Of a stretch of DNA of 64,000 nt, positions 9,858 to 55,587 are shown in pieces. The notes below the pieces were generated by a model. That model was not told the origin of the DNA. It searched no databases and saw only the letters and a list, made by a program, of their open reading frames with translations. The number at the start of each line of letters is the position of its first letter. The stretch's first letter is position 1. The DNA lies in NCBI GenBank assembly GCA_946902875.1, contig OX336350.1, positions 21,256,048 through 21,320,047 on the forward strand, written 5' to 3'. The translations under genes were made by a program, and so were the position numbers. The stretch is from Nematopogon swammerdamellus. Taxonomy: Eukaryota; Arthropoda; Insecta; Lepidoptera; Adelidae.

Positions 9858-9858
9858 G

Positions 9859-20194: not shown

Positions 20195-20409
20195 TCTCTA
20201 TAATATAGCAAAATTTTCAACTTTTTGGAAAACAACAGTACAATTTATATAAATAAATGAGGTACTATAATAATAGTACTTAAACTTATGTGACTTAGAC
20301 TGGTGAAGTTTCCACATATAATGTAATTACTACGTTTTTGACATATAATTACTACGTTTTTGAATGTGTGTGGAAAATCAAATAAAAGTATGTGAAATCA
20401 GCAGATACC

Positions 20410-20973: not shown

Positions 20974-21022
20974 CAAATAGGGCATTCCACTTGCTAGGAG
21001 AGTACAAAAGACATGGTCGGCG

Positions 21023-21540
21023 TTTTGTGGAATTGGGAAGAAAAGTGCGTGGAAAACATGGTTGAATTTGAGAGATGTAGACGCCGCTTTTGAAACGTAC
21101 TCATATGCGGGAATACCATCACATAACAGTACAGAATTAACATTGATCGAAAAGTTTGTAGTTCACATCTACCACCCTACAAGTGATACTACCAGCGTGA
21201 ACACAACACGAAGAGTCCTGTTCACTAAAAGGAACAGGTCTATAGAGCATATACCACCGACACCAAGATGCATTACTACAACACCTTAAGCGAGCAGTGC
21301 TACAGACTAAAATATGGACAAATTGTCTATACTCCAACCCGGAAAAAATTGACCCATGCAACTGAGGTTGGGAAAGTAAAAACAACGGACTGTCGTATAC
21401 ACCTGTATGGAAAACTATTAAATGCCAGTAACAGTTGCAAGGAACTCTTAACTTATAAATGCAAGAAAAGGTGCACGAGATGTGGGTGCGTGAAGAGCGA
21501 ACCGGAACGAACTGAAATGCATGCTCCAGAGAAATTTAAT
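21023..21540 (+). pseudogene. Opposed copy of the FEN-like/Cys-tail gene fragment (right palindrome arm)
   Basis: Plus-strand frames carry G-I-G-K-K-S-A-W-K-T-W from about 21033, then E-K-F-V-V-H-I-Y and S-V-N-T-T-R-R-V-L-F-T-K-R up to a stop at 21289. A frame change leads into D-A-L-L-Q-H-L-K-R-A-V-L-Q-like and C-K-E-L-L-T-Y-K-C-K-K-R-C-T near 21440-21480. It is the mirror copy of 20410-20928. Where one arm has a frameshift the other often keeps the frame, so the arms decayed independently after the inverted duplication. The GCD part lies left of the palindrome centre and is absent here. Confidence 0.5.
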
Positions 21541-25883: not shown

Positions 25884-26065
25884 GATGTGACACAAAATTA
25901 ACTCTCCCATGGAATTATTCGAGGCTTGCGCGCTATTGGACGAGCTGCCCTCCGCGCCGGCATATTCAGTTAAATTCAATTTAATTCAATTTCTTTAATC
26001 GCTTTAGGTAACAAGTTACACTTAGGTTCGACACACATTATATTTCCGAAACCAGTGACATCATG

Positions 26066-26368
26066 GTGACCGCTCGACCGTTGGAGGCTGACCGTGGTTC
26101 GGATTCCACGTAAAACCGTGGGTCCCTTCCTTCCCTTCTTACCTTACTAAGTGGTAGGGTTTATCCCGCCCGGGTTGGTACCACCGCACCGAATGAAACG
26201 TCGGTCGAAACGGCTATGTAAATAGTGCGTGTTTTCCGACCAGTTCAATGTAGCCGACATGAAATGTAGGGAAGCGCTGACACGACACCTAGTTCACCCG
26301 GTATTATGGGTTGACATCACGGATGTTGTAGGTGATGTAGCCAACCGTTTCAGTTTCCATAAAAAACA
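26066..26368 (+). mobile_element. SINE family A5, 5'-truncated within the head
   Basis: Starts inside the 5S-like part (gtgaccgctcgaccgttgg), keeps the B box GGTTCGGATTCC and the whole body, and ends ttccataaaaaac. Confidence 0.8.
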
Positions 26369-27249: not shown

Positions 27250-27480
27250 ATAGTACTGTGTGAGGCCGGTAAATCGGTCCTTCCACCGAGTCGTTGAGCA
27301 GGTGGGGTTTTGTGCCCTAATGCTACTAGTCGTTACTAGCTGCTCTCGTAGCTGCTTGATAGTTATCTTGTCCGAATACTTTGCTAAACGTGCTGGTCGA
27401 TGTTGTGTTGAAATTTTCCAAAGTTCTTGCAGTACAACACCGATTACTCTGCTTACCCTGATTGTTGGGATACAGCGTGT
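27250..27480 (-). repeat. Dispersed repeat family H
   Basis: Minus-strand counterpart of 30070-30345. Contains ccgaatactttgctaaacgt, gttgtgt...gtacaacaccgattactc (a stem of gttgtgc/gcacaac type) and accgagtcgttgagcag. Also found at 10318-10352 and, diverged, inside the LTR element at 40441. Confidence 0.6.
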
Positions 27481-27496
27481 ACGGTATTTATGTATG

Positions 27497-27980
27497 TTTT
27501 TTTTTTTATGGAACCTGACACGGTTGGCTACATCACCTACAACATCCGTGATGTCAGCCCATAACACAGGGTGAACTAGGTGCCATATCAGTGCTTCCCT
27601 TCATTTCATGTCGGCTACACTAAACTGGACGGAAAACACGAACTATTTACATAGCCGTTTCGACCGACGCGACGTTTCGCTCAGTGCGGTGGTACCAACC
27701 CGGCCGGGATAAACCCTACCACCTAGTAAGGTAAGAAGGGAAGGGACCTACAGTTTAACGTGGAATCCGAACCACGGTCAGCCTCCAACGGTCGAGCGGT
27801 CACCCATCCAATCACTGACCGCGCTCAGCGTTGCTTAATAACAGTTGACTAACCAACCGCCACGTGACTGAGCTACCGAGGCTGACGAATTTTCTTATCC
27901 CTTAGTCGACTTTTACGACATGCGACGGGGAGAGATGCAGTGGGGCTATTCTTTTTAAGTACCGACCCCACACGGTACAT
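27497..27980 (-). mobile_element. SINE family A7 with 5' extension, full length
   Basis: Minus orientation: T-run 27497-27507, body, chimeric head ending gaggctgac at 27887. The extension (cgacttttacgacatgcgac ... agtaccgaccccacacgg) follows to about 27980. Together with 9859-10298 and 35031-35522 it defines the extended subfamily. Confidence 0.85.
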
Positions 27981-28005
27981 ACATGTAAATATATTAATAC
28001 ATTTT

Positions 28006-30069: not shown

Positions 30070-30345
30070 ATACCACACGCCGTATCCCGACAATCGGGTT
30101 AAGCAGAGTAATCGGTGTTGTGCTACAAGTATTCGGTAAATTACAGCACAACACCAACCACCACGTTTAGCAAAGTATTCGGACAAGATAACTCAGATCA
30201 GGCAGCAAGTAAGGCATGAAGGCCCTCATGCTAGATGACTCGGTGGAAACACCGTGCCAAGGTGAGAGGTGGCTATCCTGTCGCCCTTATGCACGGGGAG
30301 AGATGCAGTGGGGCTATTCTTATTAAGTACCGGCCCCACACAGTA
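30070..30345 (+). repeat. Dispersed repeat family H joined to the SINE A extension motif
   Basis: Begins cgccgtatcccgacaatcgg and contains the stem gttgtgctac...ttacagcacaac and tttagcaaagtattcggaca. It ends with the extension motif cggggagagatgcagtgggg seen upstream of extended SINE A copies. Families A and H therefore share a module. Confidence 0.6.
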
Positions 30346-34785: not shown

Positions 34786-35005
34786 TTTTTTATGGAAACT
34801 GAGACGGTATGCTACATCACCTACAACGTCCGTAATGTCAGCCCATAACACCGGGTGACCTAGGTGCCATGTCAGTGCTTCCCCCTTTGATCGTGCCGGC
34901 TACACTGAACTAGTCAGAAAACACAAACTATTAACATAGCCGTTTCGACCGACGTTTCATTCAGTGCGGTGGTTAAACCCTACCACCAAGTAATGTATGG
35001 GAACA
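34786..35005 (-). mobile_element. SINE family A8, 5'-truncated
   Basis: Minus orientation tail and body (ggtatgctacatcacctac ... ttcattcagtgcggtgg); lacks the head. Confidence 0.7.
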
Positions 35006-35027
35006 CGGTGGTGGTGTTCTCGCCAAA

Positions 35028-35030
<3 letters not shown>

Positions 35031-35062
<32 letters not shown>

Positions 35063-35522
35063 GAACCTGACACGGTTGGCTACATCACCTACAACATCCG
35101 TGATGTCAGCCCATAACACAGGGTGAACTAGGTGCCATGTCAGTGCTTCCCTTCAATTCATGTCGGCTACACTAAACTGGACGGAAAACACGAACTATTT
35201 ACATAGCCGTTTCGACCGACGTTTCGTTCAGTGCGGTGGTACCAACCCGGCCGGGATAAACTCTACCACCTAGTAAGGTAAGAAGGGAAGGGACCTACAG
35301 TTTAACGTGGAATCCGAACCACGGTCAGCCTCCAACGGTCGAGCGGTCACCCATCCAATCACTGACCGCGCTCAGCGTTGCTTAATAACAGTTGACTAAC
35401 CAACCGCGCCACTGAGCTACCGAGGCTGACGAATTTTCTTATCCCTTAGTCGACTTTTACGACATGCGACGGGGAGAGATGCAGTGGGGCTATTCTTTTT
35501 AAGTACCGACCCCACACGGTAC
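35031..35522 (-). mobile_element. SINE family A9 with 5' extension, full length
   Basis: T-run 35031-35059, complete body, chimeric head ending gaggctgac at 35430, and extension to about 35522. It lies about 80 bp left of the LTR element but is not its target. Confidence 0.85.
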
Positions 35523-35542
35523 AAAAAAAATTCCTCCATCTA

Positions 35543-35600
35543 CTTTTTTTTATGGACGACAGGCACGGGTGGCTGTGCCCAACAGTTCAAAGGAAGCCAG
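35543..35600 (-). mobile_element. 3' end of the LINE that hosts the LTR element (left half)
   Basis: T-run then atggacgacaggcacgggtg ... aaaggaagccag. In minus orientation this is the end of a LINE 3' UTR whose remaining part continues at 49717. Compare the related contiguous end at 28006-28137. Confidence 0.7.
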
Positions 35601-36080
35601 TGTGACGAATCACAACCTACCTCAATGAAAATAGCTAGCAATAGGACGTATGAAGGCTGGCTGGTAAAATGTTATAAGGCGTAGGAGTTAGTTTAGCGCC
35701 TGGGTAGTGAGTATAGCAAAGAGACCGCGTTGCGTATAAATTGTAGCGGGTGGCATGTAGTCAGGCGCAGATAATACAACTTGCATACATTTTGAACAGA
35801 AATAGCTAGCAACACCGTATAAGCGATAAATGATGATAGATAAGTATTATACGTCGGCATGCAGTAAGATATAGGACGAATTGACTGTATTACATCTACT
35901 TTTGTGAATTCGTAGCATTTTTCAGAGATTAGCTACTGAAAGTTTTAGGGAAATATGGAACGCATTTTTAAGGAAAATTGCTTCAGGCATTGTGATTGGT
36001 TGACCAATGGGAAACGCGGAAATGATGTTGGGGATGATTTTCGATTGGTCATGGGGGTAAGAGTGGGAGTAAGAAAGCGA

Positions 36081-36120
36081 GGCTATTTAAGGGCGTGTAA
36101 CACGGTAGGAGCACTTTTTC
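36081..36120 (+). promoter_or_regulatory. Candidate LTR core promoter
   Basis: ggctatttaaggg supplies a TATA-like box (36083-36089). About 30 bases downstream lies ggagcactttt (about 36108-36118), a reasonable start region. The equivalent lies at 47847-47886 in the 3' LTR. This would make U3 about 510 bp. Confidence 0.4.
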
Positions 36121-36210
36121 TGCAGCTGCGAGCCTCGAGGGAACAACGTGCCTGAGCCCCGGTAATCTCTAAGTCGCATCGAGCGCCATTGTTTTTCGGC
36201 ATCAACGCTT

Positions 36211-36217
36211 CGGTGAG
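36211..36217 (+). other. Candidate 5' splice site in the LTR transcript
   Basis: cg|gtgagt at 36211-36217 is a near-consensus donor about 100 bases after the proposed start site. Another (gtg|gtaaga) follows at about 36781. Retroviral-type leaders often carry a donor here. Function is unproven. Confidence 0.35.
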
Positions 36218-36271
36218 TCTTGGACGCCGCGCGATATTTTGGAGTTTTCTAGTTGCAATTCGACCAGTTCT

Positions 36272-36310
36272 ATTAAATTGCATTGTCTTGAAGTCTTCTT
36301 TTGGTGGCTG
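36272..36310 (+). terminator. Candidate poly(A) signal in the LTR
   Basis: ATTAAA at 36272-36277, followed at about 25-45 bases by a GT-rich stretch (ttggtggctgggctag). With a start near 36113 it defines an R region of about 180 bp. No AATAAA occurs in the LTR. Confidence 0.4.
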
Positions 36311-36420
36311 GGCTAGTTTTGGAAACAATACTGGCTTTTCAGAAATTATTTGCTAGTATTAGGGATGTGAAATATTTTTATATGGACCATCACTGGAGCA
36401 CTGTGTGGGATGCTAGCTAT

Positions 36421-36770
36421 GCTGAAATATGCATACATGCATACTATTACAGGGCTCTTTCCCTTTTGGAGCACTGGGTGAGGGAGCGGGTACGCTGAAA
36501 TATGCATGCACGCCCACTCACGCAGAGTTCTTTCATGGAATGTTGTGAGGGAAGCGGGTTTTGCTGAAATATGCATACACGCACGATCTCACAGGGTTCT
36601 TCCTTGGAACGTTGTATGTGGGTTGCGGGTACGCTGAAATATGCATGCGCGCGCACTCATGCGAGGTTCTTTTCCTTTCGATGGAATGTTGGGTGGCAAC
36701 GCTAGCTATGCTGAATAAGCATACACGCTTGTTCGCACAAGATTCAGTTCATTCTCTATGATATCACGAG
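36421..36770 (+). repeat. Five-unit array of 69-77 bp with a gctgaaatatgcat core
   Basis: gctgaaatatgcat starts at 36421, 36494, 36563 and 36633, and a diverged unit (gctgaataagcat) at 36710. Each is followed by alternating ca/cg and a gttctt...gga block. The array is repeated in the 3' LTR (48187-48536). The core contains ATATGCAT, an octamer-like word. Confidence 0.8.
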
Positions 36771-37328
36771 AAAATGCCTCGTGGTAAGAAGACGTAACAT
36801 AAGGTCGAAGAGCAACTGGAATTCTGGCTAAATTATCAAATTATAACGTGGGTAGTTAGGTTCTTCAAACACTAAATTCATATTGGTAGGTTAGTCATGT
36901 AGCTGTGTGAATTAATTCTCCTTAATCTTGCAAGGGAGAGAGGGTTCGCTTCGTGGGAACGAGTAGTATCATAGCGTGTAGTAGTTAGTGAGGTAGGTAC
37001 TAGGAAGACCAGGTAAATACCCCACAGTGGTTATCCTTAGTCCTGCTAGGGGAAGAGGTCCAAATTGTTATGATCTGTTAGAGCGATACCTATTCTATCT
37101 GGGCGAAGGAGTGGCGGTACTCTAAGGACCGGTGCAAGCTGAGCTGACCGTCTGAGGAGGAAACCTGTGGTAGCCTTCTTTCGATAGGCGGAGCCCGTCG
37201 GACGAAGTACTTCGAGGTTAGGATAGGGACCACACACACACACACTTACACACACACGCACGCCTTTAGGATTTGGGGTCCGTAGGGGCCCTAAATCACC
37301 CACATTACACCACGAGTTTCATTTTAAA

Positions 37329-37509
37329 TCTCTTCCTAAGAGAAACAGTTTCTTCACAGGATAGGAAACAAAGGGGGCCATTAGGTATACAAAATAGAGC
37401 TGCTGGTAGTGAAGCAGCCCTATATGGATGATGGCCACTGTGAGGAGCGTGGAGAGCCCGGGTGAGGAAACCCGGACTCGTGGAGCTCCTTACTTCCCCT
37501 TCGGGGGAA
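37329..37509 (+). ncRNA. Chain of short hairpins including a cUUCGg tetraloop
   Basis: Consecutive exact stems: tctctt-cct-aagaga (37329-37343), gaaac-a-gtttc (about 37342-37352), gctgct...agcagc (37399-37418), ccgggt...acccgg (about 37459-37475) and ttcccc-ttcg-ggggaa (37494-37509). The last is the exceptionally stable C(UUCG)G tetraloop. Identical in the 3' LTR. A structured RNA domain in the LTR transcript, such as packaging, dimerisation or initiation, is inferred. Confidence 0.45.
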
Positions 37510-37940
37510 ATTGTTTGAATAATATGAAAATTACTGGTTAACACAATTTCTGGGAGGAGAGAACACAGACAATTACAATGTGAGGGAAGAGACACAGTAA
37601 TATAGGAGAGGCGGACTTAGGCAGAAAATTTCAAATGTAGTTAGAATATTATTCGAAGAACAAAGGTTAAGATAGAAAGCTAGGGATTGAGTTAGTACTC
37701 TGGGTTATACGGTTACACAACGCTTCCTCGAAGAGAGGAAGATACAGGGTCCATCTACACTTAACTCAGTGTACACGTATGTATACATTGATTGAGTTTA
37801 CCTAGAGATCACTTGAATGCTAAACGCAGGCCATGTTTTATTTTAGAGGTTACTCGCGGAAGCGTGGAATTTCGGAATAATTATTCGACAACACCTATCG
37901 GGTGAAGTATAAATACAAAATATACTTTGGTGAGAGGCTA

Positions 37941-38175
37941 GTTCGTCGCAGTGGTGCCTAAGACCAGGATAGTTCTTCTCTAAATCTAGGATACCTAGGG
38001 TTCAAAAAAAAAAAAAAAAAAAGATTGGAAAATTTTTTTTTTAAAAAAAAGGGAAAATTGAATAACAATCTAGTACGTTGAAGTGGAGCCTTAAGACCAG
38101 GCTAGATTCTATCCAAATCTAGGATACCTAGGGTTCAGAAAAAAAAATGGAAGAAAAATGTAGTTCGTTGCGGTT
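37941..38175 (+). repeat. Degenerate repeat spanning the LTR/interior junction
   Basis: ctagttcgtcgcagtggtgc...aaatctaggatacctagggttc is followed by tagtacgttgaagtggagcc...aaatctaggatacctagggttc about 135 bases on, and by tagttcgttgcggtttagg at 38161. The LTR terminus itself is part of the repeated unit. Between the units lies an A-rich/T-rich run. Confidence 0.65.
37951..37975 (+). other. Candidate primer-binding site
   Basis: One base after the 5' LTR lies tggtgcctaagaccagga. It begins TGG as expected for pairing with a tRNA CCA end. I cannot assign the tRNA from memory. Similar words recur at about 38085 (gtggagccttaagaccagg), so this could also be just part of a local repeat. Confidence 0.3.
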
Positions 38176-39589
38176 TAGGCAGTAGTTCAGGACAATAATA
38201 GGGGTCTTATATACTCAAAAGCGATAGGAAAAAATCCAACTCATAGGGAGTAGCGATATAAGTAAACAACGTTTAGGAAGTGATACCGGGAAAGTGATTA
38301 AGTGTGGAATTCGGTGAGGAAATGCGTGAAAAGTTGTTCGTGGAACGCGGTGCTGACTGGCAGTTTTGCGAGAGAAGAGATTTGGACTCCCGCCTACGAG
38401 GCGGGAGGTTTCGCCGCTTGAAGCTGAGAGTGAGTACATATTTCATTTTCCGGCGCGAGTGCAGTCTGTGTACAATTAGTTAATTTACAGGAATATTGTC
38501 TACAATTTGCCGACAATGTTGCTAGAAAACCGATTTTAACGTGAACGAATTGTCACCAGAAAGTCGACTAGAGATTCATCTTTGAGTTCGTAAAAGAAAA
38601 TTGCTTACATTTCCTTCTAGGAAGTTCATTATCATTGTTCTGCGGACATCTAGAAATATTTAAGTGAAAACCAATTTTGACCAATGGGATGTGAGCGCCG
38701 GTGCGGTATGGCGTTCGCTATTGGCTAGAATGAGCAGCGCCGTGATAGAAAAAAAAACTGTTTGCACGAAGAATGTAGTCGGGTTGAGAGGTGATAGACT
38801 AAACAAAGTGGAAGTTAGGGGAATGGTATGTATGAATGGTGTGAGGCATATTTTTAAGCGGAATGTTAGCAACTTCGTAGAAGTAAGGTGGGGCCAAAGG
38901 GAAATATTTTATCCAGAGATTGTGAAACTAAAATCAATAATTTATTCCGGGTACACCGAGATATAGCAGGAAGAGGAAACATTTTTTTATATGGGTTATC
39001 GGAAAAATTGTGCTATAAGCCCAAAAGCCAATTAATTTAGAATCCTAGAATGTACTAAAATCAACAATATTGTAGTAAGAATATTCTATGAAAACCTTAG
39101 TTGTAAAATTGGATAGCCATTCTATTTAAGTTAAGGCACGCCAACTGAGCGCGGAGGGCTTCATACCTAAAACACTGAAGTTATGTTCGAAAATAATCTT
39201 GTCATGTGTAATAATTAGGTACACTCGCGCGCGAAATAGTTTATCGGGGCCAGTTTGAGGTCAATAAAGGGAATTTTCTAGTTGTTTTTGTGGAAAAGAA
39301 GTTAGTTGGGGTGTGAGCTTCCTTTGTAAAATAAAAAAACCGTAAAATATGTGTGTTTGAAAAGAGTGGTTATGTTTGACCGGGTTCCAACAGACTCATT
39401 TAATTTTGGTTGAGATTGTCGCCGAGGAATAAAAAGATTCGAATCTTTATTTCATTTTAGAGGAATGCGAGAAGAACGAAACATAGCATTTTGAAAATGT
39501 ATAATGGATGTTTAGTTAATGATTTGTGTAGTAGTGATAAGGTGTGCATTTTAGGCTCCAAAGTAGGTATTTCGCGAATTAGTAGCGAG
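38176..39589 (+). other. LTR-element interior, segment without repeats
   Basis: No coding domain; a 100-codon frame (38664-38966) has no recognisable motif. Moderately GC-balanced. Confidence 0.5.
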
Positions 39590-40380
39590 CGACGGTATGG
39601 CACCTACTAGTAGGTGATGGTAGGTTAAGGTTAGGGGATCCCAGTTAATTGATGTGACTAATTAGGTGCCATGTACAAGTGAAGGTTAGTTGTAAAGTTG
39701 TGTCTAGGTCTGACTTTGCGTGTGTGGGCGATATGGTACTTACTAGATTAGGTTAGTGGTAAACGAAGGTCATGGTGTACAAGTTGACCAGTGGAAGTAA
39801 TTAGGTGCCATGTACAATGTTGGTTAGGTCGTGAGGTTGAGTCTTGGTCAGATTTTTGTGTGTGTGTGGCGAATAGAGGCTCTTAGTGAACATGCCGAAT
39901 ACGTGGTTCATTTCGAGTGAGTGGTTTTGGGCTTGAATGTAGTGTTTGTTTATTGATAGGATAGGGAATGGATTGTTAAGTTTGTTTATTTTGGAACTGA
40001 TTGGTTGGTATGAGGAATGGGGATTCCAGTTGCTCAAGGAATGCGTGCGGGGAATGTAAGAGTTAAAACGGTTAGGAGGGAGCAAGTGCAATGTCGGAGA
40101 ACGTGCCGATCGAGATATTTAATTTTTATCGGTCGTGCATGATTGTTGTCCGTGCGGAATGCGGAAGGAATGGATTATAAAGAGTATAGGAATTAGGTGC
40201 CATGACAGAGGTCCAGGTTTCGATTTTAGGTTGCGGTCGTATGTATAGGTGTCAAAAGGTGAGAGGGCCAGTTGGTGAGTGTTGATGCGATTGGAGGTCG
40301 AATTAAGCCTGTCGATTTGTGATCCATATCGAGTGAGTGGTTTTAGATTTGCCCATAAATGTGTTTGTTTAATTAATTAG
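39590..40380 (+). repeat. Degenerate duplications with 'aattaggtgccatg' units
   Basis: aattaggtgccatgtacaa occurs near 39660 and 39799, and aattaggtgccatgacaga near 40190. cgagtgagtggttttgg and cgagtgagtggttttag occur near 39914 and 40329. The interior grew partly by local duplication. Confidence 0.55.
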
Positions 40381-40440
40381 ACTAATTTATAAATAATATT
40401 TGATACATGTGTACATGTTGCACGCGTTGAAAGAAAACAG

Positions 40441-40530
40441 TCGGGGTGGGCGGAGTGATTGATGTTGTGCGGTGGGAGCTCTGGTGAATTGCAGCACAAC
40501 GCCGATCACCACGTTTTGCAAATTATTTTA
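40441..40530 (+). repeat. Diverged family H module captured in the LTR element
   Basis: ggagtgattgatgttgtgcgg...gaattgcagcacaacgccgat caccacgttttgcaaa matches family H (30090-30190) in order and retains its gttgtgc/gcacaac stem. It shows that the interior contains genomic repeat sequence. Confidence 0.6.
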
Positions 40531-40569
40531 TAACTAAGTTTGGTTATTGTGCGGGCTACAAGGTGGTGT

Positions 40570-41350
40570 CAGGGGTTTCTAACTTTTCTAAAGGGAAGTG
40601 TCAGGGGTTACAAACCTTTTTCCAAATTTATAGGTCAGGGATTTTAAACTTTTTCAGATACATATATATAAGCAGTTTCCAAACTTTTAGGCTTGGTAAG
40701 TGTCATGCCTTTCGAATTCATGATATGTAGGGGGTTGTAAACATTTTACAAGGGCACGATAAGTCAGGGGTTTCCAAACCTTTCAACTTTGGAAAAGAGT
40801 AGTGGTTCTTAGAACATTTTTGAATTTCGCAATGATTCAGAGGTCTAGACTTTCGATATATTTTCGAATTGGTATTATATCAGGAGTTCTCAACCTTTTC
40901 CAAATTTAGGTTGTAAGCCTTTTCAAATTCATGATAAGTCAGGGGTGCTCAAACTTTTCCAAATTTATATTGTCAGGGATTTCGAACTTTTCCAAATTCA
41001 TGATAAGTCAGGGGTGCTCAAACTTTTCCAAATTTATATTGTCAGGGATTTCGAACTTTTTCAAATTCATGATAAGTCAGGGGTGCTCAAACTTTTCCAA
41101 ATTTAGATTGTCAGGGATTTCGAACTTTTCAAGTTCACGATAAGCCAGGGGTGCTCAAACTTTTACAAATTTAGATTGTCAGGGATTTCGAACTTTTCAA
41201 ATTCACGATAAGCCAGGGGTGCTCAAACTTTTTCAAATTTATATTGTCAGGGATTTCGAACTTTTTCAAATTCATGATGAGTCAGGGGTTCTCAAAGGTT
41301 TCCAAATTAAGTTAGTGTCAGGGATTTCGAACCATTTCAAAATCGTGACA
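40570..41350 (+). repeat. 69-bp tandem array
   Basis: Units of gtcaggggtgctcaaacttt tccaaattta... start at 40938, 41007, 41076, 41144, 41212 and 41281 (spacing 68-69), with more diverged units before 40938. Each unit holds two half-units (tcaggggtgctc..., tcagggatttcgaac...). Because 69 is divisible by three, a 70-codon repetitive frame appears by chance. Confidence 0.9.
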
Positions 41351-41399
41351 TGTCAGGGGTTTACAACTTTATTTACAAAAATATTTTTGATTTAAGGGA

Positions 41400-42900
41400 G
41401 GCCTCAACATCCCAAGAATATTTCGGAGTCAGGGGTTCTCAACTTTCGGAATATTTTCTAATTTTAAATATTTTAGGGTTCTCAACTTTAAGAAATACTT
41501 TTACTTTTCCGGAATATTTAAGGGAGGTCTCAGCTTCCAAAAATAGTTTGAACTTAGCGGTTTTTAATTTCAAAAATATCTTCAAATTTTGAATTTCTAG
41601 GGTCTCAACTTTAGAAAAATATTTTATTTTTCCTCAGGATATTTAAGGAAGGTCTTAACTTCCAAACATATTTGCACTTAGCGGTTCTTAATTTTCAAAA
41701 ATATTTTCAAATTTTGAAATTTTAGGGTCTCAACTTTAGAAAAATATTTTTACTTTTCCGGAATATTTAAGGGAGGTCTCAGCTTCCAAAAATATTTTGA
41801 ACTTAGCGGTTTTTAATTTCAAAAATATTTTCAAATTTTGAATTTCTAGGGTCTCAACTTTAGAAAAATATTTTATTTTTCCTCAGGATATTTAAGGAAG
41901 GTCTTAACTTCCAAACATATTTGCACTTAGCGGTTCTTAATTTTCAAAAATATTTTCAAATTTTGAAATTCTAGGGTCTCAACTTTAGAAAAATATTTTA
42001 TTTTTCCTTAGGATATTTAAGGGAGGTCTTAACTTCCAAAACGTTTTGAACTTAGCGGTTCTTAATTTTCAAAAGTATTTCCAAATTTTTTATTATTTTG
42101 GGTTTTCAATTTTGAAAAATATTTATTTTCCTCAGGATATTTAAGGGAGGTCTTAACTTCCAAACATATTTGCACTTAGCGGTTCTTAATTTTCAAAAAT
42201 ATTTTCAAATTTTGAAATTCTAGGGTCTCAACTTTAGAAAAATATTTTATTTTTCCTTAGGATATTTAAGGGAGGTCTTAACTTCCAAACATATTTGAAC
42301 TTAGCGGTTCTTAATTTTCAAAAATATTTTCAAATTTTGAAAGTCTAGGGTTCTCAACTTTAGAAAATTATTTTATTTTCCTCAGGATATTTAAGGGAGG
42401 TCTTAACTTCAAAAAAAAAAAAAAAAAAAATTTTGAACTTACCGGTTCTTATTTTTGAAAAATATTTTCAAATTTTAAACATCTTAGGGTTCTCAATTTT
42501 TTAAAAAATATTTTATTCTTCCAGGATATTTAAAGGAGGTCTCAACTTCCAAAAATATTTTGAGGTCAGACATTCTAAACTTTCAAAATTATTTTCAAAT
42601 CTTGAATGTTTAGGGTTCTCAAATTTAGAAAATTACTTTCATTTTCCAGATTATTAAGGGAGGTTTCAAATTCCAAGTATTTTGGATTAAGCGGTCCTCA
42701 GACTTTCGAGAATAGTGCCAAATTTGGAATGGTTTAGGGTTCTCGACTTTAGAAATATTTTAATTTTAGGAATGTTTAGGGAGGAGTCCGACTTTCAATA
42801 TGTTTTGAGTTCAGGAGTTCCCAACTTTCAAAGTGTTTCGGATTTTGAATATTTCAGGGGTCTATACTCTAGTAATGCCTTTATTCTTTCGGAATGTAAG
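41400..42900 (+). repeat. 124-bp tandem array, about ten units
   Basis: The marker (a)agg(g/a)aggtct occurs at 41521, 41646, 41770, 41894, 42020, 42144, 42269, 42394, 42533 and 42656, spaced 123-126 except one 139-base step caused by a 22-base A-run. Each unit contains a gcggttcttaattttcaaaa segment and gggtctcaactttagaaaaa. The half-unit theme (tcaa-tttt) resembles the 69-bp array, suggesting common origin. Confidence 0.9.
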
Positions 42901-43673
42901 GGAAGTGTGTTATGTATATTGCACCTAACGCGAATCAAGGACACGGTAATAGGCTATTAGAGATATTGTAAGTAATTATAAATTTATACCGTGCAGCGCT
43001 GTCACTCGATGCTGGCAGTAGTGAACGAATTCGCTATTCGTTTGATTCCCACGATTTAAAAGGGAAGAAAAAAGGAGAAACTTTATTCTTATAAACACCA
43101 ATACACACGGTCAAACAAAATATCAAATATTGTGTGACAGGTTCAACTCGAGGTTTGATTATTGGATAGACTATCATGAATTGGATGTGATTTATTGTGT
43201 TAATTATTAGTTATTTTTAGTAATTTACTGTCTTATCTTTGAACTTAGCTATATCTGCTTTTGCATAGAGGACATTTTCCCCACATGCGCAGGCATGTCT
43301 GTTCGTGTACACGAATGATACTTGCGTACTTAGGGATCGTGAATACATTGGTGTTTGGGTGCGTGGGCGCATATTTAATTGGTTACTTACATATCTACTT
43401 GTGTGTCTATAGATACCTAATTGCGTGCGTACATGCGTGGATGCGTGCAGGCGTTCGTGCGCATATGTAATTGTGTGCGTACTTGCTGATTGGTATGACT
43501 ATGCTTGCGAATCCGTGCGTACATGCATATTACTTGGTTACCTGCGTCGGTAGGGATTGTTGTGGATGCGCGGGGACAGGCTTCGAACCCCGGACTGCGG
43601 GTGGTTCGTCACTCTTCGGTTTATGATCTGGCTAAGTATTTGTGAGTGAGCTGAGTACATGTTAATATTATCC

Positions 43674-44156
43674 TACTGAAAAAAAAGAGTAAGAAGAGAA
43701 AAGAAAAAAAAAATAACCAAAAGAATAACAAAAGGTAAGTGTATCTCGCAATATTATATTTTAAAATGATAGAACAAGGACTTATAGTTAAATAAGATGC
43801 TGATGAAATATTATGCTACTACTCTCAACCATCCAGGGATTGACAGGAAGAAATTCCTATAATGGGATAAGTCCGCCTTTACGCCTCAGGTAAATTATGT
43901 ACCGTGCATGTTTCTGTGAGATGTGTCCGAACGGTCGGGAATTATTATTTATCTATTTATGTTAAATAATTTATTTTCGTGGATGAATACTAAACCACAT
44001 ATTTACATAGACTAATCACGTGTTTATAGGGTGTATACTTACATGGACTTAACTATATATATATTTTTTTTAAATATCAATTCTATAATTAATTATTAGA
44101 CCAAATAAGAGGTAGAGGATTTGAATATTGTTTTAATTATGATTTTTCTTTTTCAG
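43674..44156 (+). other. Candidate intron with purine-rich upstream tract
   Basis: A 60-base A/G-rich tract (43674-43734) ends in aaag|gtaagt, a perfect donor at 43735. At 44156 gatttttctttttcag|gaaa is a strong acceptor with a polypyrimidine tract. The 422-base interval fits an insect intron. It suggests that the element makes a spliced non-coding RNA. A purine tract of this kind could also serve as a secondary plus-strand primer. Confidence 0.4.
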
Positions 44157-44810
44157 GAAAATACTTATTCGTCTTTGAATAAATAGGTACTTGAGTGCGG
44201 TTAATGTTAACGTTTTATTTATAGTGGGGTTTACATAAGTCTACGCATACCAAAATCAACGAATATTCTTCGATGCACATGCGGATTGCAATATTGCAGG
44301 GCAATATTGCATTATTATTATTAATTTGTAATCAAGATCGAAAAAAAAATATATATATACGAATTAAACTTGGCGTTTTATTAGGTACACTGGACCATTT
44401 AAACGGTGCCCTGTATCTATTCTTATTAGAAGGTCCTATTGTCTCATATTATGATCGAACAGGTGGTAAAATGTTTCAAGTTATATATAAAATTACTTAT
44501 AAAATAAGAATCTGGTTTTATTGTTCGGGTTGTGTGAAGCAGAATACTGTTACACACATCGCCTTGACATTGCGGGGTATTTTATAAGTATCTTAAACTG
44601 TTTAAAGTATTGTACGTCGGGTTGATAAATGCTGTATGAGTTGACGAGTGTTGTGTAAAAAAGTTTTATCATCGTGCTAGCTGAAGGCGGGTAATGTTGA
44701 GCGGATCTTTATGCATTTGTTTTGGGTGGTGAGTTATTTAGGAGAGGTTGGGGTTGGGGATGATACATTAATTTTATGGGAGGATGAGCAATGGAGGATA
44801 CGACGAATCT

Positions 44811-47365
44811 GGCGGGCGAACGGTGAGTCTTCAACAATCGTACTAACCTTTATGTTATGCATGTATACTATTATTTAGAACGCGGAATTTGGAAGGCGAA
44901 GAATTGGGAGAAGTTTGGTTTGACGTACAGTAGAGATTTCCTATTTATCTGGTAACTGAAAGGACGACTCCTTTACGGCGTACGCGCATCATATTGTGCC
45001 GTAACAAGAGCATACTTGTTGTCTTTAGGGTTACGGAATGCATATGTTTAGGCGGGCGAGAAAATGGAATAGGTTAAAATTAGATAGAAAATAAAATAAA
45101 TGTTATAGAATAAAATAGGTATGGTAATGATCAAAGATAAAAACTACCTTCTTATCGCAGTCTTAAGGGAATGCGAATCTGTACGTGTAGACCATAGGTT
45201 TAGGGGCCGTGATCGTCTAGTGGGTAGGACCCTACGTTGTTAGGGTAGTATTGCTACAGTGCGATACTGTTTAACTTAGAGAAGTAGTAGAATAATGATA
45301 TTTACTATTCAATACTGAAATTTCAGAATTGAAAGTGAATTGGTTTGGTAAAATACGGTAATTTGGTACGATTTGAATTGGTTTGGTAAAATACGGTAAA
45401 GTGGGTGCGAATTGACTCCGTTTGGTAAAATCCGGTAAAGTGGGTACGAATTGACTCGGTTTGGTAAAATACGGTATAAGTGGTACGATTTGACTCGGTT
45501 TGGTAAAATACGGTAAGGTGGTACGATTTGACTCGGTTTGGTCAAATTCGGTAAGTAAACCACGTAGTTATCATAGGATAGGATAGAGTCCGGCGGGCGA
45601 GGTAAGATACTAGGTAGGTTGTTTTTCGTATGTGCAATATAGGAAGGGAACACAATAGGGAACGATCATCATTTGTTGGACGAGCTATAGAGTAAACATA
45701 GTTTGGCGGGCGTACTACTTACTAACGGTAGGGTTCGGTCCACCTGGTACGGGAGGAGTAGGTAGAAGGGAGTCTTGAGCGACAGACTAGGGATTGGGGT
45801 TATGGTTTATATAGGGATAGATAGAGCGTGTACGGAGGATATTTCGGATAAAATATCAGTTAAAACAGTCAGTTAATACGGTGCGTTCATAGATTTACAT
45901 AGTCAGGCGGGCGAATAGAGTATGAAAATGAAGTAAAATTGGTAATTAGGGCATCGAACGTAGCCGCGGATCGTGTGTAGGTTGGCGAGTTAAATTATGC
46001 TGTCCTGAAGTAAGGACGAGTTAGGAGGTACAGTTGTAGATATAGATTCTTAGTATTATTCTGGGGTTAATTAAAGGACGGAGACAGTAGAAACTATAGC
46101 ATATATATAGCTAGGGAATAGAAAGCTCTAACGAATAATACCCGCTACGGACAAATAGGAATAAAATCCTGTTCGGCGTGGGGGAGTTGAGTTATTGATA
46201 ATTATGAACAAAAGGTTTTAAGACTTAGAATAGACTTGTTGGTAGATGCTGGGTTTGGATGGTTGTGTAAATACAGAAATACGCGAGTAAACCATTGGGT
46301 ATTATAGTGTCTGTACTCGGTAGTGAAACTTCCTTCTAATGAGAGCAGAGCTCTGACCTGAAGAGACTTTTACAATGAATCAGGACACTTTGGTTTCGAT
46401 TTTTATTGCATTTCCCATACATTGCTCCGAAAAGAATGTGAACGTAAACTCAGTGTGTTGAACACACGAATGGGACTTGGAAAATGTGAGGTGAACAAAG
46501 CCATAGTGCAGAACTTTACATTTCATCGAGACCTTAATTTGTTCTCGCTCGGGAGGGAAAATGTTATCATGTACCGAGGGCGTTCTACACTAAGCAAAAA
46601 GGAGCGTTTAAAGTTAGTGGTGACATTTTCCGGTCTATGAAAAGTGATAGAACATAGCAATTTGAACCATTGACCGGAGCAATGTTGGATGAGATTAAAG
46701 TAGAGTCGTGTACAATCAGACTGGGCCCATCCATTCGTCAACGGGTGAGTTAGTTAGCAAAGGTTATGATTCGGAAGAAGCAAAGTCAATTTAATATTCT
46801 CTCAGTAATAATTTCCCAGTTTTCCTGTCTATAACTAGAAAGGTTAAGGTGTTGGAATGTGCGGCGTGTCTAAACCGGAGGTGGCAAGGTATGTTGTGCG
46901 CTCTTCCTGGAGAGAAGTACTGATCCTGCCCTACCAGCGAGGGGTAAGACTACAGGTTTCCTGAGCTGGTGGGAAATCTTTCTATGGCATGAAACAGGGT
47001 ATTAAGTGTTTAGTAATTTCATTTTGAGCTTCTGATGAGTCTAACCTGACTATACTAGGACGAATGCCCATATGTTGTGTTGTGTGGTCGGGACTGCTTA
47101 GCACCAAAATAAAATGCCACAATCATTCTGGTAAGGGAACAAACACCCTATTAGAAGAATTTGTTGGTACTACGGACCTTCTGGACAGGGAACGAACACC
47201 CTAACAGAGGCACATCTACGAAAAGCAGTACTGCAGCCATAGCATTAATATATGTTGGCGACAGACAGACATAGACTATAGTATGGTGTAGAGACGCTAG
47301 TCGCGATCATGGAAGGAGAAAATAGATTCTTTCCCATGCCGCGAAAATCGCCTCTAGGCGGGCGA
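44811..47365 (+). repeat. Six dispersed ggcgggcga motifs
   Basis: Located at 44811, 45051, 45592, 45714 (ggcgggcgt), 45906 and 47357, the last directly against the 3' LTR. The word is rare in such AT-rich sequence and is flanked by a or t on the left. Otherwise this segment holds no coding or structural feature beyond the 39-bp array. Confidence 0.6.
45341..45570 (+). repeat. 39-bp tandem array, six units
   Basis: Units of ggtttggtaaaatacggtaa agtgggtacgaattgactc start about every 38-40 bases from 45341 to 45534. Confidence 0.9.
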
Positions 47366-47366
47366 C

Positions 47367-49716
47367 TGTGACGAATCACAACCTACCTCAATGAAAATAG
47401 CTAGCAATAGGACGTATGAAGGCTGGCTGGTAAAATGTTATAAGGCGTAGGAGTTAGTTTAGCGCCTGGGTAGTGAGTATAGCAAAGAGACCGCGTTGCG
47501 TATAAATTGTAGCGGGTGGCATGTAGTCAGGCGCAGATAATACAACTTGCATACATTTTGAACAGAAATAGCTAGCAACACCGTATAAGCGATAAATGAT
47601 GATAGATAAGTATTATACGTCGGCATGCAGTAAGATATAGGACGAATTGACTGTATTACATCTACTTTTGTGAATTCGTAGCATTTTTCAGAGATTAGCT
47701 ACTGAAAGTTTTAGGGAAATATGGAACGCATTTTTAAGGAAAATTGCTTCAGGCATTGTGATTGGTTGACCAATGGGAAACGCGGAAATGATGTTGGGGA
47801 TGATTTTCGATTGGTCATGGGGGTAAGAGTGGGAGTAAGAAAGCGAGGCTATTTAAGGGCGTGTAACACGGTAGGAGCACTTTTTCTGCAGCTGCGAGCC
47901 TCGAGGGAACAACGTGCCTGAGCCCCGGTAATCTCTAAGTCGCATCGAGCGCCATTGTTTTTCGGCATCAACGCTTCGGTGAGTCTTGGACGCCGCGCGA
48001 TATTTTGGAGTTTTCTAGTTGCAATTCGACCAGTTCTATTAAATTGCATTGTCTTGAAGTCTTCTTTTGGTGGCTGGGCTAGTTTTGGAAACAATACTGG
48101 CTTTTCAGAAATTATTTGCTAGTATTAGGGATGTGAAATATTTTTATATGGACCATCACTGGAGCACTGTGTGGGATGCTAGCTATGCTGAAATATGCAT
48201 ACATGCATACTATTACAGGGCTCTTTCCCTTTTGGAGCACTGGGTGAGGGAGCGGGTACGCTGAAATATGCATGCACGCCCACTCACGCAGAGTTCTTTC
48301 ATGGAATGTTGTGAGGGAAGCGGGTTTTGCTGAAATATGCATACACGCACGATCTCACAGGGTTCTTCCTTGGAACGTTGTATGTGGGTTGCGGGTACGC
48401 TGAAATATGCATGCGCGCGCACTCATGCGAGGTTCTTTTCCTTTCGATGGAATGTTGGGTGGCAACGCTAGCTATGCTGAATAAGCATACACGCTTGTTC
48501 GCACAAGATTCAGTTCATTCTCTATGATATCACGAGAAAATGCCTCGTGGTAAGAAGACGTAACATAAGGTCGAAGAGCAACTGGAATTCTGGCTAAATT
48601 ATCAAATTATAACGTGGGTAGTTAGGTTCTTCAAACACTAAATTCATATTGGTAGGTTAGTCATGTAGCTGTGTGAATTAATTCTCCTTAATCTTGCAAG
48701 GGAGAGAGGGTTCGCTTCGTGGGAACGAGTAGTATCATAGCGTGTAGTAGTTAGTGAGGTAGGTACTAGGAAGACCAGGTAAATACCCCACAGTGGTTAT
48801 CCTTAGTCCTGCTAGGGGAAGAGGTCCAAATTGTTATGATCTGTTAGAGCGATACCTATTCTATCTGGGCGAAGGAGTGGCGGTACTCTAAGGACCGGTG
48901 CAAGCTGAGCTGACCGTCTGAGGAGGAAACCTGTGGTAGCCTTCTTTCGATAGGCGGAGCCCGTCGGACGAAGTACTTCGAGGTTAGGATAGGGACCACA
49001 CACACACACACTTACACACACACGCACGCCTTTAGGATTTGGGGTCCGTAGGGGCCCTAAATCACCCACATTACACCACGAGTTTCATTTTAAATCTCTT
49101 CCTAAGAGAAACAGTTTCTTCACAGGATAGGAAACAAAGGGGGCCATTAGGTATACAAAATAGAGCTGCTGGTAGTGAAGCAGCCCTATATGGATGATGG
49201 CCACTGTGAGGAGCGTGGAGAGCCCGGGTGAGGAAACCCGGACTCGTGGAGCTCCTTACTTCCCCTTCGGGGGAAATTGTTTGAATAATATGAAAATTAC
49301 TGGTTAACACAATTTCTGGGAGGAGAGAACACAGACAATTACAATGTGAGGGAAGAGACACAGTAATATAGGAGAGGCGGACTTAGGCAGAAAATTTCAT
49401 ATGTAGTTAGAATATTATTCGAAGAACAAAGGTTAAGATAGAAAGCTAGGGATTGAGTTAGTACTCTGGGTTATACGGTTACACAACGCTTCCTCGAAGA
49501 GAGGAAGATACAGGGTCCATCTACACTTAACTCAGTGTACACGTATGTATACATTGATTGAGTTTACCTAGAGATCACTTGAATGCTAAACGCAGGCCAT
49601 GTTTTATTTTAGAGGTTACTCGCGGAAGCGTGGAATTTCGGAATAATTATTCGACAACACCTATCGGGTGAAGTATAAATACAAAATATACTTTGGTGAG
49701 AGGCTAGTTCGTCGCA
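47367..49716 (+). repeat. 3' LTR, 2,350 bp
   Basis: Second copy of the LTR, starting tgtgacgaatcacaacc at 47367 and ending gttcgtcgca at 49716, followed by the target duplication ccag. All promoter, tandem-unit and hairpin features of the 5' LTR are repeated here. Confidence 0.93.
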
Positions 49717-50103
49717 CCAGACACAGCCAATAACACCACTCCTCGCGAAACCACGCTCAGAGAGGCGCCGTGCCAGCTACAAGGCGGACAAAGAGGCCGT
49801 TGTCTAATTTATTAACACACTCGCCGGAAGTCCGTTCCATATTTTCGCCGTACGAAATAGGAACGATTTCGAAAAGCGATGCGTTCTCAGAAGTTTTGCG
49901 TCAATAACATATGGATGTTCCGAGCGTGTCCGGCGGGTGTGACGGAAACGAATCGGGCAGGAGGGATTAGGGAAGCCAGTTCTTCGGAGCATCGGCAGTG
50001 GTAGTACCTATAAAACAGGCTACCTGAACCAATTGTTCGCCTCTGTTGCAATGATTCAAGTCCCTCCGTGAGCTTGGCATCACCAATTAGGCGAACTTAC
50101 GAA
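49717..50103 (-). pseudogene. LINE 3' part hosting the LTR element (right half)
   Basis: Minus-strand frames from about 50100 give R-L-I-G-D-A-K-L, G-S-L-F-Y-R-Y-Y. After a frameshift follow R-S-E-H-P-Y-V-I-D, R-F-S-K-S-F-L-F-R-T-A-K-I-W-N-G-L-P and a stop. The 3' UTR runs through 49717 and resumes at 35600. It is the C-terminal RT domain of a Jockey/CR1-type LINE, 5'-truncated. The element was interrupted in its UTR by the LTR retrotransposon. Confidence 0.8.
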
Positions 50104-51966: not shown

Positions 51967-52735
51967 CTACGAGGGTGGATCCAAAACTTCTAAGCCCGAC
52001 CATGAAATTGAAAGAAAAGTGGGTCCAAATCAATTTTTATTTTTCGCCATAGTCTCCATTAAGGTCAATGCACTTTTTCCACCTGACCTGCAACCTTCGA
52101 AAAAAAAAGATTCCGGAAGGTCGTCAAAAAACTCATTTACTGCGGCTTTAAGTGTTTTTTTTTATTTGAAAAAAGGTGGTAATCCGAGGGGGCTAAATCC
52201 GACGAATAAGGTGCGTGGGGCAATAATTCATAACCACAATTATGGATTTCAGACATTGATTCAGCCGAAGTGAGAACCCGGGCGTTGTTGTCTTGATGGA
52301 ACAACACTTTCTTCCGCAGCAACGCAACCCCGGCCTTTTTTTAACCGACTTCCAAAAAAGGAGGAGGTTCTCAATTCGTCTGTATGTTTTTTTTTATTTT
52401 TTTTTTTATTTTTTTTTTTTCTTTGATTTCTTCTTGAAGTCTTCGCAAAAGGTTCCAATAATATTTTGAATTTATAGTTTTGCCTTTTGGTAAATAATCC
52501 ACGAAAATAATCTCCTTCGCATCCCAGAAAACTGAAGCCATGACTTTGTTGGTTGACAAAACGACCTTAGCCTTCTTCGGAGTGGGTGTGCCAGATCTTT
52601 TCCACTGCTTCGATTGTTGTTTCGATTCAGGAGTATGGTGGTGAACCCAGCTTTCATCCATGGTAACGAAACGGGACAAAAAATCCTCGGGATCTGCCTC
52701 AAAAAGTTCCAAACAATCGAGGGAAATTGTGAAGC
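51967..52735 (-). pseudogene. mariner transposase, broken, N-terminus missing
   Basis: Minus-strand reading from about 52735 gives L-E-L-F-E-A-D-P-E-D-F-L-S-R, T-M-D-E-S-W-V-H-H (first catalytic Asp), later V-L-F-H-Q-D-N-N-A-R-V (second Asp), and Y-S-S-D-L-A-P-S-D-Y-H-L-F (third, the D34D position). Family members of about 345 residues use these three Asp residues for cut-and-paste at TA. The DNA-binding N-terminal 130 residues are absent, a 100-bp repeat interrupts the frame at 52341-52440, and stops and frameshifts follow. The left end tacgagggtggatccaaaa (51967) resembles a mariner terminal repeat. Confidence 0.85.
52341..52440 (-). repeat. Family I repeat inserted into the mariner
   Basis: ttaaccgacttccaaaaaag, gaggaggttctcaattcg and a T-rich tail split the transposase frame between the E-E-I-K-E-K region and the R-K-x-V-L-F-H-Q-D segment. 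Same family as 31187-31432. Confidence 0.75.
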
Positions 52736-53183
52736 AAACTCAGTTTGTTTTCATGTTATATTTGGTTTTAGGCTATAAATCACAACGCTACGTCTTCGGC
52801 GGCGGCGGTCTGAGCTGTGAGCGAAGAGAAACCACGGGCAAAAGTTAGTACTACAATGATTTTATTACTAAGTTGTGAATCCAGTCGCTACAAGGTCACG
52901 TCATTAGTCTGTGGGTACTCATCTTTAATTTAACTTTCCTAAGTCTTAAGATTTGCGAGACATTACACACAGTTCATTAATTTACATAAACTGGTAGGGT
53001 TAGTTAGGCTTACGCTGTATGTTCTAGTCCGCACAAATTAAAGAATTTCCGATTTGGCACCTCTCCAGGCTCCGCCGCCAGCGCGGAGGATTGAGAAAAA
53101 ACGTGACTTTCATTCAAGTTGCCGCCGGCGCCGAGCCGGCCCGCCGCGCCGTCCCCGCGCCCCGGCCCGCCACGCCGCGCCGC
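52736..53183. other. Spacer, GC-rich at the right end
   Basis: 53085-53183 is GC-rich (gccggcgccgagccgg). No gene recognised. Confidence 0.35.
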
Positions 53184-53631: not shown

Positions 53632-54020
53632 GTTTTTTTTTAATGGTAACTGACACGGTTGGCTACATCACCTACAACGTCTGTGATGGCAGCCCATAAC
53701 ACCGTGTGAACTAGGTGCCATGTCAGTGCTTCCCCCTTTGATCGTGCCGGCTACACTGAACTGGTCGGAAAACACAAACTATTTACATAGCCGTTTGGAC
53801 CGACGTTTCATTCAGTGCGGTGGTACCAACCCGGGCGGGTTAAACCCTACCACCAAGTAAGATTAGGAGGGAAGGGACCTACAGTTTTACGAGGAATCCG
53901 AACCTCGGTCAGCCTCCAACGGTCAGCCGGTCACCCATCCAAGTACTGACCGCACCCAGCGTTGCTTAACATTCAATAGCGACAGTTGACTGTCTGCACC
54001 ACTGAGCTATCGAGTCTGAC
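53632..54020 (-). mobile_element. SINE family A10, full length
   Basis: T-run 53632-53641, body, B box complement ggaatccgaacc, and 5S-like segment (aagtactgaccgcacccagc gttgcttaac). The A box complement is ccactgagcta and the 5' end is at 54020. Closely similar to A1 in the head (tcaatagcgacagttgact). Confidence 0.88.
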
Positions 54021-54114
54021 AGGCTCGCTATCGAGGCTGGAGGTCTATGTGGCTCGACACTCGAACGCTGTTGTATGTAACGATTTCCCTCCTAGCGCTA
54101 AATGCTACAATATT

Positions 54115-54765: not shown

Positions 54766-55203
54766 TCCTATCATCTGTTCTTCCAACATGACCGAACCAC
54801 CGAAGGTTCCTTGAAAATAGGTACGATTACTATACTTTAAAGTTTCCAGAAACAAAATTAGCTTTTCCGCGCGCCGAAATAAAGTTACGGTAGCGGGCTT
54901 ACTTACTTTATTCTTTTTAAATACGAATTTCACGCGAGCGAAGCCGCGGGCTTAAGCTATACTTAATATGTTGTCACGTGACCAGCTTCGGTTTGCTCTT
55001 AAAGCCGTGGGCGGACCACCCGCATGCGCAGACGTCCGGCGATAATGTGACACCTGCCTGCCAGGCAGCGTCTCGTCATCATCACATCACACCAATGACG
55101 ATAAGACATCAAAGAGTTGTCGCTGTCCGACCTCCCCTTCTTCGCCGCCGCCGCCTCCGCTTGCTAAACATACAAGTACATTGATTTGATTACACTTGTT
55201 TAT
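54766..55203. other. Spacer
   Basis: 54932-54955 has gcgagcgaagccgcgggctt, a Helitron-like terminus. 55020-55035 has cgcatgcgcaga, an NRF1-type word. A CpG-rich block at 55120-55165 precedes no visible exon. Confidence 0.3.
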
Positions 55204-55587
55204 GTCAGCCTCGATAGCTCAGTGGTGCAGACAGTCGACTCTCGCTATTGATGGTTAAGCAACGCTGGGCGCGGTCAGTACTTGGATGGGTGACCGTTCG
55301 ACCGTTGAAGGCTGACCGTGGTTCGGATTCCACGTAAAACTGTGGGTCCCTTCCCTTCTTTCCTTACTTGGTGGTAGGGTTCAACCCGCCCGGGATGATA
55401 CCACCGCACTGAATGAAACTTTAGTCGAAACGGCTTGCAAATAGTTTGTGTTTTCCGTCCAATTCAGTGTAGCCGGCACGACCGAAGAGAAGCACTGACA
55501 TGGCACCTAGTTCACCCGGTGTTATGGGCTGACATCACGGATGTTGTAGGTGATGTAGCCAACCGTGTCAGTTTCTACAAAAAAAAA
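55204..55587 (+). mobile_element. SINE family A11, full length
   Basis: gtcagcctcgatagctcagt, the 5S-like segment (gttaagcaacgctgggcgcg gtcagtacttgg), B box GGTTCGGATTCC, body, and poly(A) at 55579-55587. It is the closest of all copies to 5S rRNA in its middle. Confidence 0.88.

Follow-up and report, generated by a model that had tools for sequence, protein, structure and literature searches.

A non-coding long terminal repeat retrotransposon family of Nematopogon swammerdamellus and the coding Ty3/Gypsy copies that probably mobilize it

How does a retrotransposon of 14 kb spread in an insect genome if it encodes no protein? The question is raised by a stretch of 64,000 nucleotides from the lepidopteran Nematopogon swammerdamellus (Adelidae; GenBank assembly GCA_946902875.1, contig OX336350.1, positions 21,256,048–21,320,047 of the forward strand), hereafter called the window, which contains an element of 14,116 bp bounded by two long terminal repeats (LTRs). 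Our analysis indicates that this element is very probably one complete copy from a large non-coding family of the large retrotransposon derivative (LARD) type, which has been active recently and is copied in trans by coding sisters.

The two direct repeats, at positions 35601–37950 (5′ LTR, plus strand) and 47367–49716 (3′ LTR, plus strand) of the window, are 2,350 bp each, align without gaps at an offset of 11,766, and have one mismatch (37634/49400). Identity between them ends precisely at TG...CA on both sides, and the tetranucleotide CCAG, found at 35597–35600 and again at 49717–49720, is a 4-bp target-site duplication (TSD). The LTR termini form an imperfect inverted repeat of 9 bp (TGTGACGAA/TTCGTCGCA, 8 of 9 positions matching). 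The interior (37951–47366, plus strand) has 9,416 bp, and its sense strand is rich in G and poor in C, with a guanine–cytosine skew of 0.07 to 0.36 in twelve 2,350-base segments of the element, compared to −0.10 to 0.17 in 181 segments of the flanks.

The longest stop-to-stop frame of the interior (120 amino acids) was matched or exceeded in 76 of 200 first-order Markov simulations of the interior and in 105 of 200 simulations of the whole element. With stops read as X, no Pfam domain reached the cut-off in any of the six frames of the interior or in five of the six LTR frames; three interior matches were weak (E = 0.09–0.22, far under the cut-off), and as a positive control the same procedure recovered a broken piece of a mariner element near 52 kb (E = 1.9e-22). 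Three-base periodicity exceeded 4 in none of 77 interior segments, compared to 5 of 17 segments of the frame of a long interspersed nuclear element (LINE) in the window. A single frame from the LTR and one from the interior, queried against a protein collection, had no match, and nothing in the window reached the Rfam gathering score (best E = 1.9 in 35001–49800). Exact patterns of the LTR and primer-binding site (PBS) had no match in viral contigs, and four matches of a 19-mer LTR/PBS pattern to unrelated bacteria, among prokaryote genome contigs, are near chance (about two expected). The repeats, their ends, offset and single substitution, as well as the CCAG duplication, had been described in an initial annotation made from the sequence of the window, and all were reproduced by repeat comparison; its claim that the interior lacks coding capacity is upheld by frame lengths, domains, periodicity, and the lack of partner-protein relics described below.

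The element has many relatives in its genome, whose 39 contigs add up to 699,432,277 bases; the window is part of contig C19. A search with the first 800 bp of the LTR turned up 204 candidate places; of these, 40 were scored, and all 40 were 97–100 per cent identical over their length; 34 of them form 17 pairs, the window's included. These 17 pairs, whose ends were retrieved, constitute the copy set analyzed here, and the ends were readable in all but one copy (C16). Fifteen of the 16 readable copies have perfect duplications of 4 bp, which are of 12 kinds (CCAG, AGCT, CTAT, GTAC in three copies, TAAG, CTGA, GGAG, CATT in two copies, GTGG, TATG, ACAG, and GTAT). The flanking bases (8–10 read per side, fewer at one) differ in all 15 readable copies beyond the window's. 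In the 12 copies measured, the two LTRs of a copy have 0–8 mismatches over their aligned length, with zero in three copies. Substitutions in moths arise at 2.9e-9 per site per generation, at which rate the single LTR mismatch of the window element corresponds to some 70,000 generations, with broad uncertainty. Two copies depart from the common layout: non-coding copy C9b carries a BEL/Pao element of about 8 kb (Peptidase_A17, RVT_1) inside its tandem-repeat block, and in copy C15 part of the interior is replaced by about 3.45 kb unmatched in the window element.

Two copies of the set, C30 and C24b, are coding. They are about 20 kb long, with interiors of 14.5 and 15.0 kb (summed pieces), and share the LTR, PBS, leader, and 3′ end with the window element. 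Specifically, the leader and tandem repeats are alike up to about position 42964 of the window, and the 3′ end is alike from about 45340 (86–98 per cent identity), so that the interior common to the two forms comprises about 5 kb at the 5′ side and about 2 kb at the 3′ side. Between these shared ends, about 8 kb of C30 and C24b contain a gag-like frame, a pol frame of 1,200 amino acids, a frame of 135 amino acids, and a BTB/POZ frame. In Pfam searches, the pol frame has G-patch, gag-asp aspartic protease, RVT_1, RNaseH, H2C2, and rve integrase domains, and the order protease–reverse transcriptase (RT)–RNaseH–integrase is that of Ty3/Gypsy; the G-patch lies at residues 51–87, upstream of the protease. 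Neither the gag-like frame nor the 135-amino-acid frame had a Pfam match above the cut-off.

Eleven loci match a piece of the partner RT at 95–100 per cent identity; nine of them are full, one is split, and one is partial. The pol frame is uninterrupted in six of eight coding loci checked and interrupted in the other two, and the ratio of nonsynonymous to synonymous polymorphism (pN/pS) among the six uninterrupted loci is 0.13. In a tblastn search, the coding copies' proteins left no trace in the window element (best E = 1.6), whereas the control copy C24b was positive for all four. The initial annotation had supposed that the element was recently mobile, that dispersed copies with different 4-bp duplications would support this, and that a gag-pol-bearing relative with matching LTR ends lies elsewhere. 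The copies described above agree with each of these expectations, with the caution on recency that is discussed below, and coding capacity at the relatives is evident; that these copies are the related autonomous partner in the same genome is what we infer from it.

How do the two forms relate to each other? A segment of 2.4 kb in the window element (42965–45340, plus strand) has no match in C30 and C24b, where the gag-pol-BTB block stands instead, and the two forms appear to differ by the exchange of the roughly 8-kb coding block for this unrelated segment. A query from the center of the element (43000–45000) gave 270 candidate places; 40 were scored, on many contigs, and all were 93–100 per cent identical, from which it follows that the non-coding form has spread as such. 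Its scored places number at least 40, compared to 11 RT loci, and it thus outnumbers the coding form. In a phylogenetic tree of the LTRs, the two coding copies occupy separate, supported places among 15 non-coding ones, a topology which suggests that family members have exchanged LTRs or coding blocks more than once.

The BTB/POZ frame of the coding copies (PF00651, E = 1e-23; C30:4500481-4501401) is stop-free at ten places with 95–100 per cent identity, which coincide with the nine full RT loci and the split one; the partial RT locus has pieces only (87–88 per cent). Diverged or broken pieces are located at C24:2917173, C23:4002235, and C22:12522474, with shorter ones elsewhere. For pieces of six copies, pN/pS is 0.31, calculated from few differences. 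Apart from these copies and pieces, the best whole-domain match in the genome is at C4:24785470 (50 per cent over 103 residues), and seven places at C10:20579460-20638337, which are probably a host gene array, are 33–36 per cent identical to the element BTB. The element BTB may resemble Mod(mdg4). Of the 53 solved-structure sequences with a match to it, a ZBTB17 fusion ranked first; Mod(mdg4) was absent from this list. Two sister Gypsy groups, with RTs 73–75 per cent identical to that of the coding copies, account for 5 and 23 scored places, respectively (28 among 40 scored candidates). BTB was not found in one 1-kb piece per sister group taken at the same offset, that is, in two pieces from 28 places, which does not prove its absence from these groups. 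The titles and abstract openings examined in the literature yielded no BTB-bearing LTR retrotransposon.

Shared ends and recency together suggest mobilization in trans by the coding copies, in which the following steps would take place. RNA polymerase II would transcribe the element from the LTR, where ATTGG/CCAAT motifs at 35995, 36004, and 36044 and a TATTTAA motif at 36084 (35995–36090, plus strand) form a putative promoter, a probable assignment by motif match. A splice-donor-like GGTGAGT at 36212 and a poly(A)-like ATTAAA at 36272 follow (36212–36277, plus strand), which would imply a short R region and a U5 region of about 1.65 kb. Gag of the coding copies would package the non-coding RNA through the shared leader, and their RT would begin at the PBS position (TGGTGCCTAAGACCAGGA, 37952–37969, plus strand), one base past the 5′ LTR. 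This putative 18-base PBS (TGGTGCC...) is unchanged in 14 of 16 readable copies, including the window's, and one base off in each of C30 and C31. The same RT would begin the plus strand at GGCGGGCGA, and the integrase of the coding copies would insert the DNA with 4-bp duplications.

By eye, this site may resemble tRNA-Phe 3′ ends (16 of 21 bases) and a tRNA-Leu D-arm (13 of 15). The LTR end, PBS, and leader are duplicated in tandem in the window element (37938–38158, plus strand; copy 1 at 37938–38022 and copy 2 at 38070–38158), and its second PBS copy, 132 bases on, has drifted. Among the 11 other copies examined, the leaders of C30, C24b, and C10a lack the duplication and align only from interior base 133.

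Could the element be a decayed autonomous LTR element, with LTRs that look young only through gene conversion between them? In copy C31, the last 55 interior bases are replaced by 47 bases identical to its own 5′ flank, as would result if the LTRs had exchanged sequence or the assembly were locally wrong, and an overwritten junction speaks for this explanation. However, the window element has no gag or pol relic, its 2-kb non-coding center is itself repeated at all 40 scored places, and the perfect duplications of 12 kinds tell against conversion as well; we regard this explanation as very improbable. An assembly duplication or a segmental duplication, in place of retrotransposition, has nothing in its favor beyond the near-identity of the window's two repeats. 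Because the 15 other readable copies have different flanks, the window repeat is not an assembly duplication, and with perfect TSDs in 15 of 16 copies on many contigs, we find either kind of duplication barely credible. Similarly, an autonomous element of an unrecognized kind, with proteins too divergent for Pfam, would have the size of the interior to recommend it, but the frame lengths are those of random sequence, three-base periodicity is lacking, and coding sisters with the same LTRs exist whose proteins are absent from the window element. This, too, is highly unlikely.

Mobilization by a different Gypsy family, such as the two sister groups, and not by the LTR-sharing coding copies, deserves somewhat more weight. 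RT places of the sister groups are more numerous than those of the coding copies, and LTR homology has been argued to be unnecessary for trans-mobilization (PMC10886601). On the other hand, the coding copies share the LTR, PBS region, leader, and 3′ junction with the non-coding ones (a comparison of ends made for the LTR-sharing copies), and most of the coding loci checked retain an uninterrupted pol. We therefore consider a different Gypsy family unlikely as the source of the proteins and favor the LTR-sharing coding copies.

Several observations weigh against mobilization of a recent non-coding family by these coding copies. The case is built from genome sequence. The interior was examined throughout at 2 of the 11 coding loci (C30 and C24b), and the candidate counts for the LTR and the central segment include unscored places. 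The duplication of coding copy C30 is imperfect (AAAC/AAAT, one mismatch). Since the junction of C31 was overwritten or misassembled, LTR identity alone is an imperfect clock for dating insertions. A pattern search that covered intronless tRNA genes of ordinary length gave none with a perfect fit to the PBS. Finally, no purine tract of nine or more bases adjoins the 3′ LTR; the sole one in the last 400 bases (12 nucleotides) ends 44 bases upstream.

What does adjoin the 3′ LTR is GGCGGGCGAC, in 16 of 17 copies, both coding ones included. It contains the last of six occurrences of a motif on the plus strand of the window element: GGCGGGCGA at 44811–44819, 45051–45059, 45592–45600, 45906–45914, and 47357–47365, and GGCGGGCGT at 45705–45713. 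The copy at 47357–47365 lies one base before the 3′ LTR, at the place expected of a polypurine tract. Within the last 2.6 kb of the window interior there are six occurrences of the 8-mer GGCGGGCG, all in the sense orientation (0.03 expected), and each of the 17 copies has 4–6 in its 3′ 3 kb, with no antisense occurrence there. In the window flanks (about 50 kb), the 9-mer is found twice and the 8-mer four times.

In a context-anchored test of the five internal sites, 3 of 504 motif bases differ, compared to 312 of 8,360 flank bases (Fisher P = 1.8e-5, not a true probability because the copies share ancestry; 3, 3, 0, 10, and 1 of 16 copies were dropped at the respective sites where the context was not found). 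The terminal motif differs more than its flanks (7 of 128 bases, all in C31, compared to 33 of 2,242), and terminal conservation adds nothing to the argument. When the last 2 kb at the 3′ end of the 17 copies are aligned column by column, 5, 7, and 4 of nine motif columns vary at three internal sites; the repeats are misaligned there, and C31 stands outside the column counts. We read GGCGGGCGA as a candidate plus-strand start in place of a polypurine tract.

A broader proposal joins these features into a two-part system, in a layout that we did not find in print. An autonomous Gypsy element would have captured a host-type BTB/POZ regulator, kept stop-free in all ten copies with at least 95 per cent identity. 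Both forms would carry the sense-only GGCGGGCG, 4–6 times in the 3′ 3 kb, and in 16 of the 17 copies one of these stands exactly at the plus-strand start. This signal would either take over from the polypurine tract, so that an element of 14–20 kb has several plus-strand origins, or serve as a site of action that involves the BTB protein. The sites would persist in the non-coding form, which would have lost all genes and would outnumber its partner. We put this forward as a tentative and rather doubtful proposal.

Other features of the element are repetitive. Tandem repeats of 69 bp lie within the LTRs (36421–36672 and again 48187–48438, plus strand), and a tandem block with units of 69 bp and about 125 bp occupies 40600–42900 of the interior (plus strand), with a counterpart in C30 and C24b. 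The sequence CAGGGGTGCTCAAACTTTT inside the units of this block presumably resembles hAT transposon ends. An interior stretch of 92 bases (40436–40527) is about 73 per cent similar to two places in the left flank (27375–27466 and 30090–30179).

Elsewhere in the window, a dispersed repeat of about 300–490 bp is found at 6440–6825, 9857–10296, 26065–26366, 27491–27984, 35037–35525, 53633–54021, and 55203–55587. It is probably a short interspersed nuclear element: the copy at 35 kb has a T-run at one end, and the repeat looks tRNA-promoter-like by eye; Rfam gave no match to the 35-kb copy. The LINE frame (17537–20197, minus strand; 886 amino acids) encodes an endonuclease and an RT, and among the best 120 of 1,681 relatives of its RT, those named by organism are from moths and butterflies (48–57 per cent identity), save one with the label of an archaeal metagenome-assembled genome. 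The frame is surrounded by an inverted pair (16426–17065/21686–22325, 93 per cent), and near-palindromes are located at 20451–21527 and 24319–24671. The broken mariner transposase fragment lies at 52371–52739 (minus strand).

To which class does the element belong? Terminal-repeat retrotransposons in miniature (TRIMs) need a total length under about 1 kb, and this class was rejected for an element of 14,116 bp. Barley LARDs, reportedly described by Kalendar et al. in 2004, are likewise large, non-coding, LTR-bounded, and non-autonomous, but they belong to a plant and are said to have LTRs of about 4.4 kb and an internal domain of about 3.5 kb, compared to 2.35 and 9.4 kb in this insect. The mouse pair ETn/MusD, in which a non-coding LTR element is copied by an LTR-sharing coding sister, has the same two-form arrangement, except that it is mammalian, is about 5–6 kb long, and has an endogenous retrovirus as the partner.

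For insects, a paper on ant TRIMs stated that all earlier reports of LARDs and TRIMs came from plants (PMC3532108). In Culex quinquefasciatus, 38 non-coding LTR elements with tandem repeats (cqUNK), one of them 14.6 kb long, were described without their masters being found (PMC3286476). Like the window element, cqUNK elements have no coding sequence, a PBS, a TSD, and internal tandem repeats, and their LTRs are over 98 per cent alike; unlike it, they have LTRs of 125–931 bp, a reported polypurine tract, and TSDs that, where given, are mostly of 5 bp (PMC3286476). No master copy was found for cqUNK (PMC3286476), whereas the family described here has a coding partner. In the honey bee, 301 elements, making up 3.10 per cent of the genome, were classed as LARDs (PMC4028053); these are computed classes, outside the authors' detailed inspection unless they carry a class I or II element, and the available part of the paper names no partner (PMC4028053). 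The animal TRIMs called Helenus have 4-bp TSDs and are linked to Gypsy (PMC10886601). Helenus and Ajax (TRIMp3) are non-autonomous LTR elements like the present one, but they are miniature and have LTRs derived from small RNAs (PMC10886601), no such RNA being detected in the window element by Rfam. The initial annotation had called the element an unusually large animal LARD-like element. The LARD type and the large size stand, but an animal host is not new in itself, given the insect LARD-like elements, including the 14.6-kb one of Culex. Three things are unusual here: how large the element is, the BTB gene of its partner, and a 3′ junction with GGCGGGCGA in place of a polypurine tract.

Unlike in Culex, the closest precedent, a single genome here allows us to name the coding partner, the proteins that it encodes, and the place at which the coding and non-coding forms exchange sequence. 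If confirmed, both a BTB-carrying Gypsy element and a plus strand that starts outside a purine tract would be of specialist interest. LTRs of 2.35 kb, a leader of 5 kb, and 2 kb at the 3′ end are common to the two forms, and it becomes possible to ask directly what the RNA of a retrotransposon has to retain for the proteins of another to copy it.

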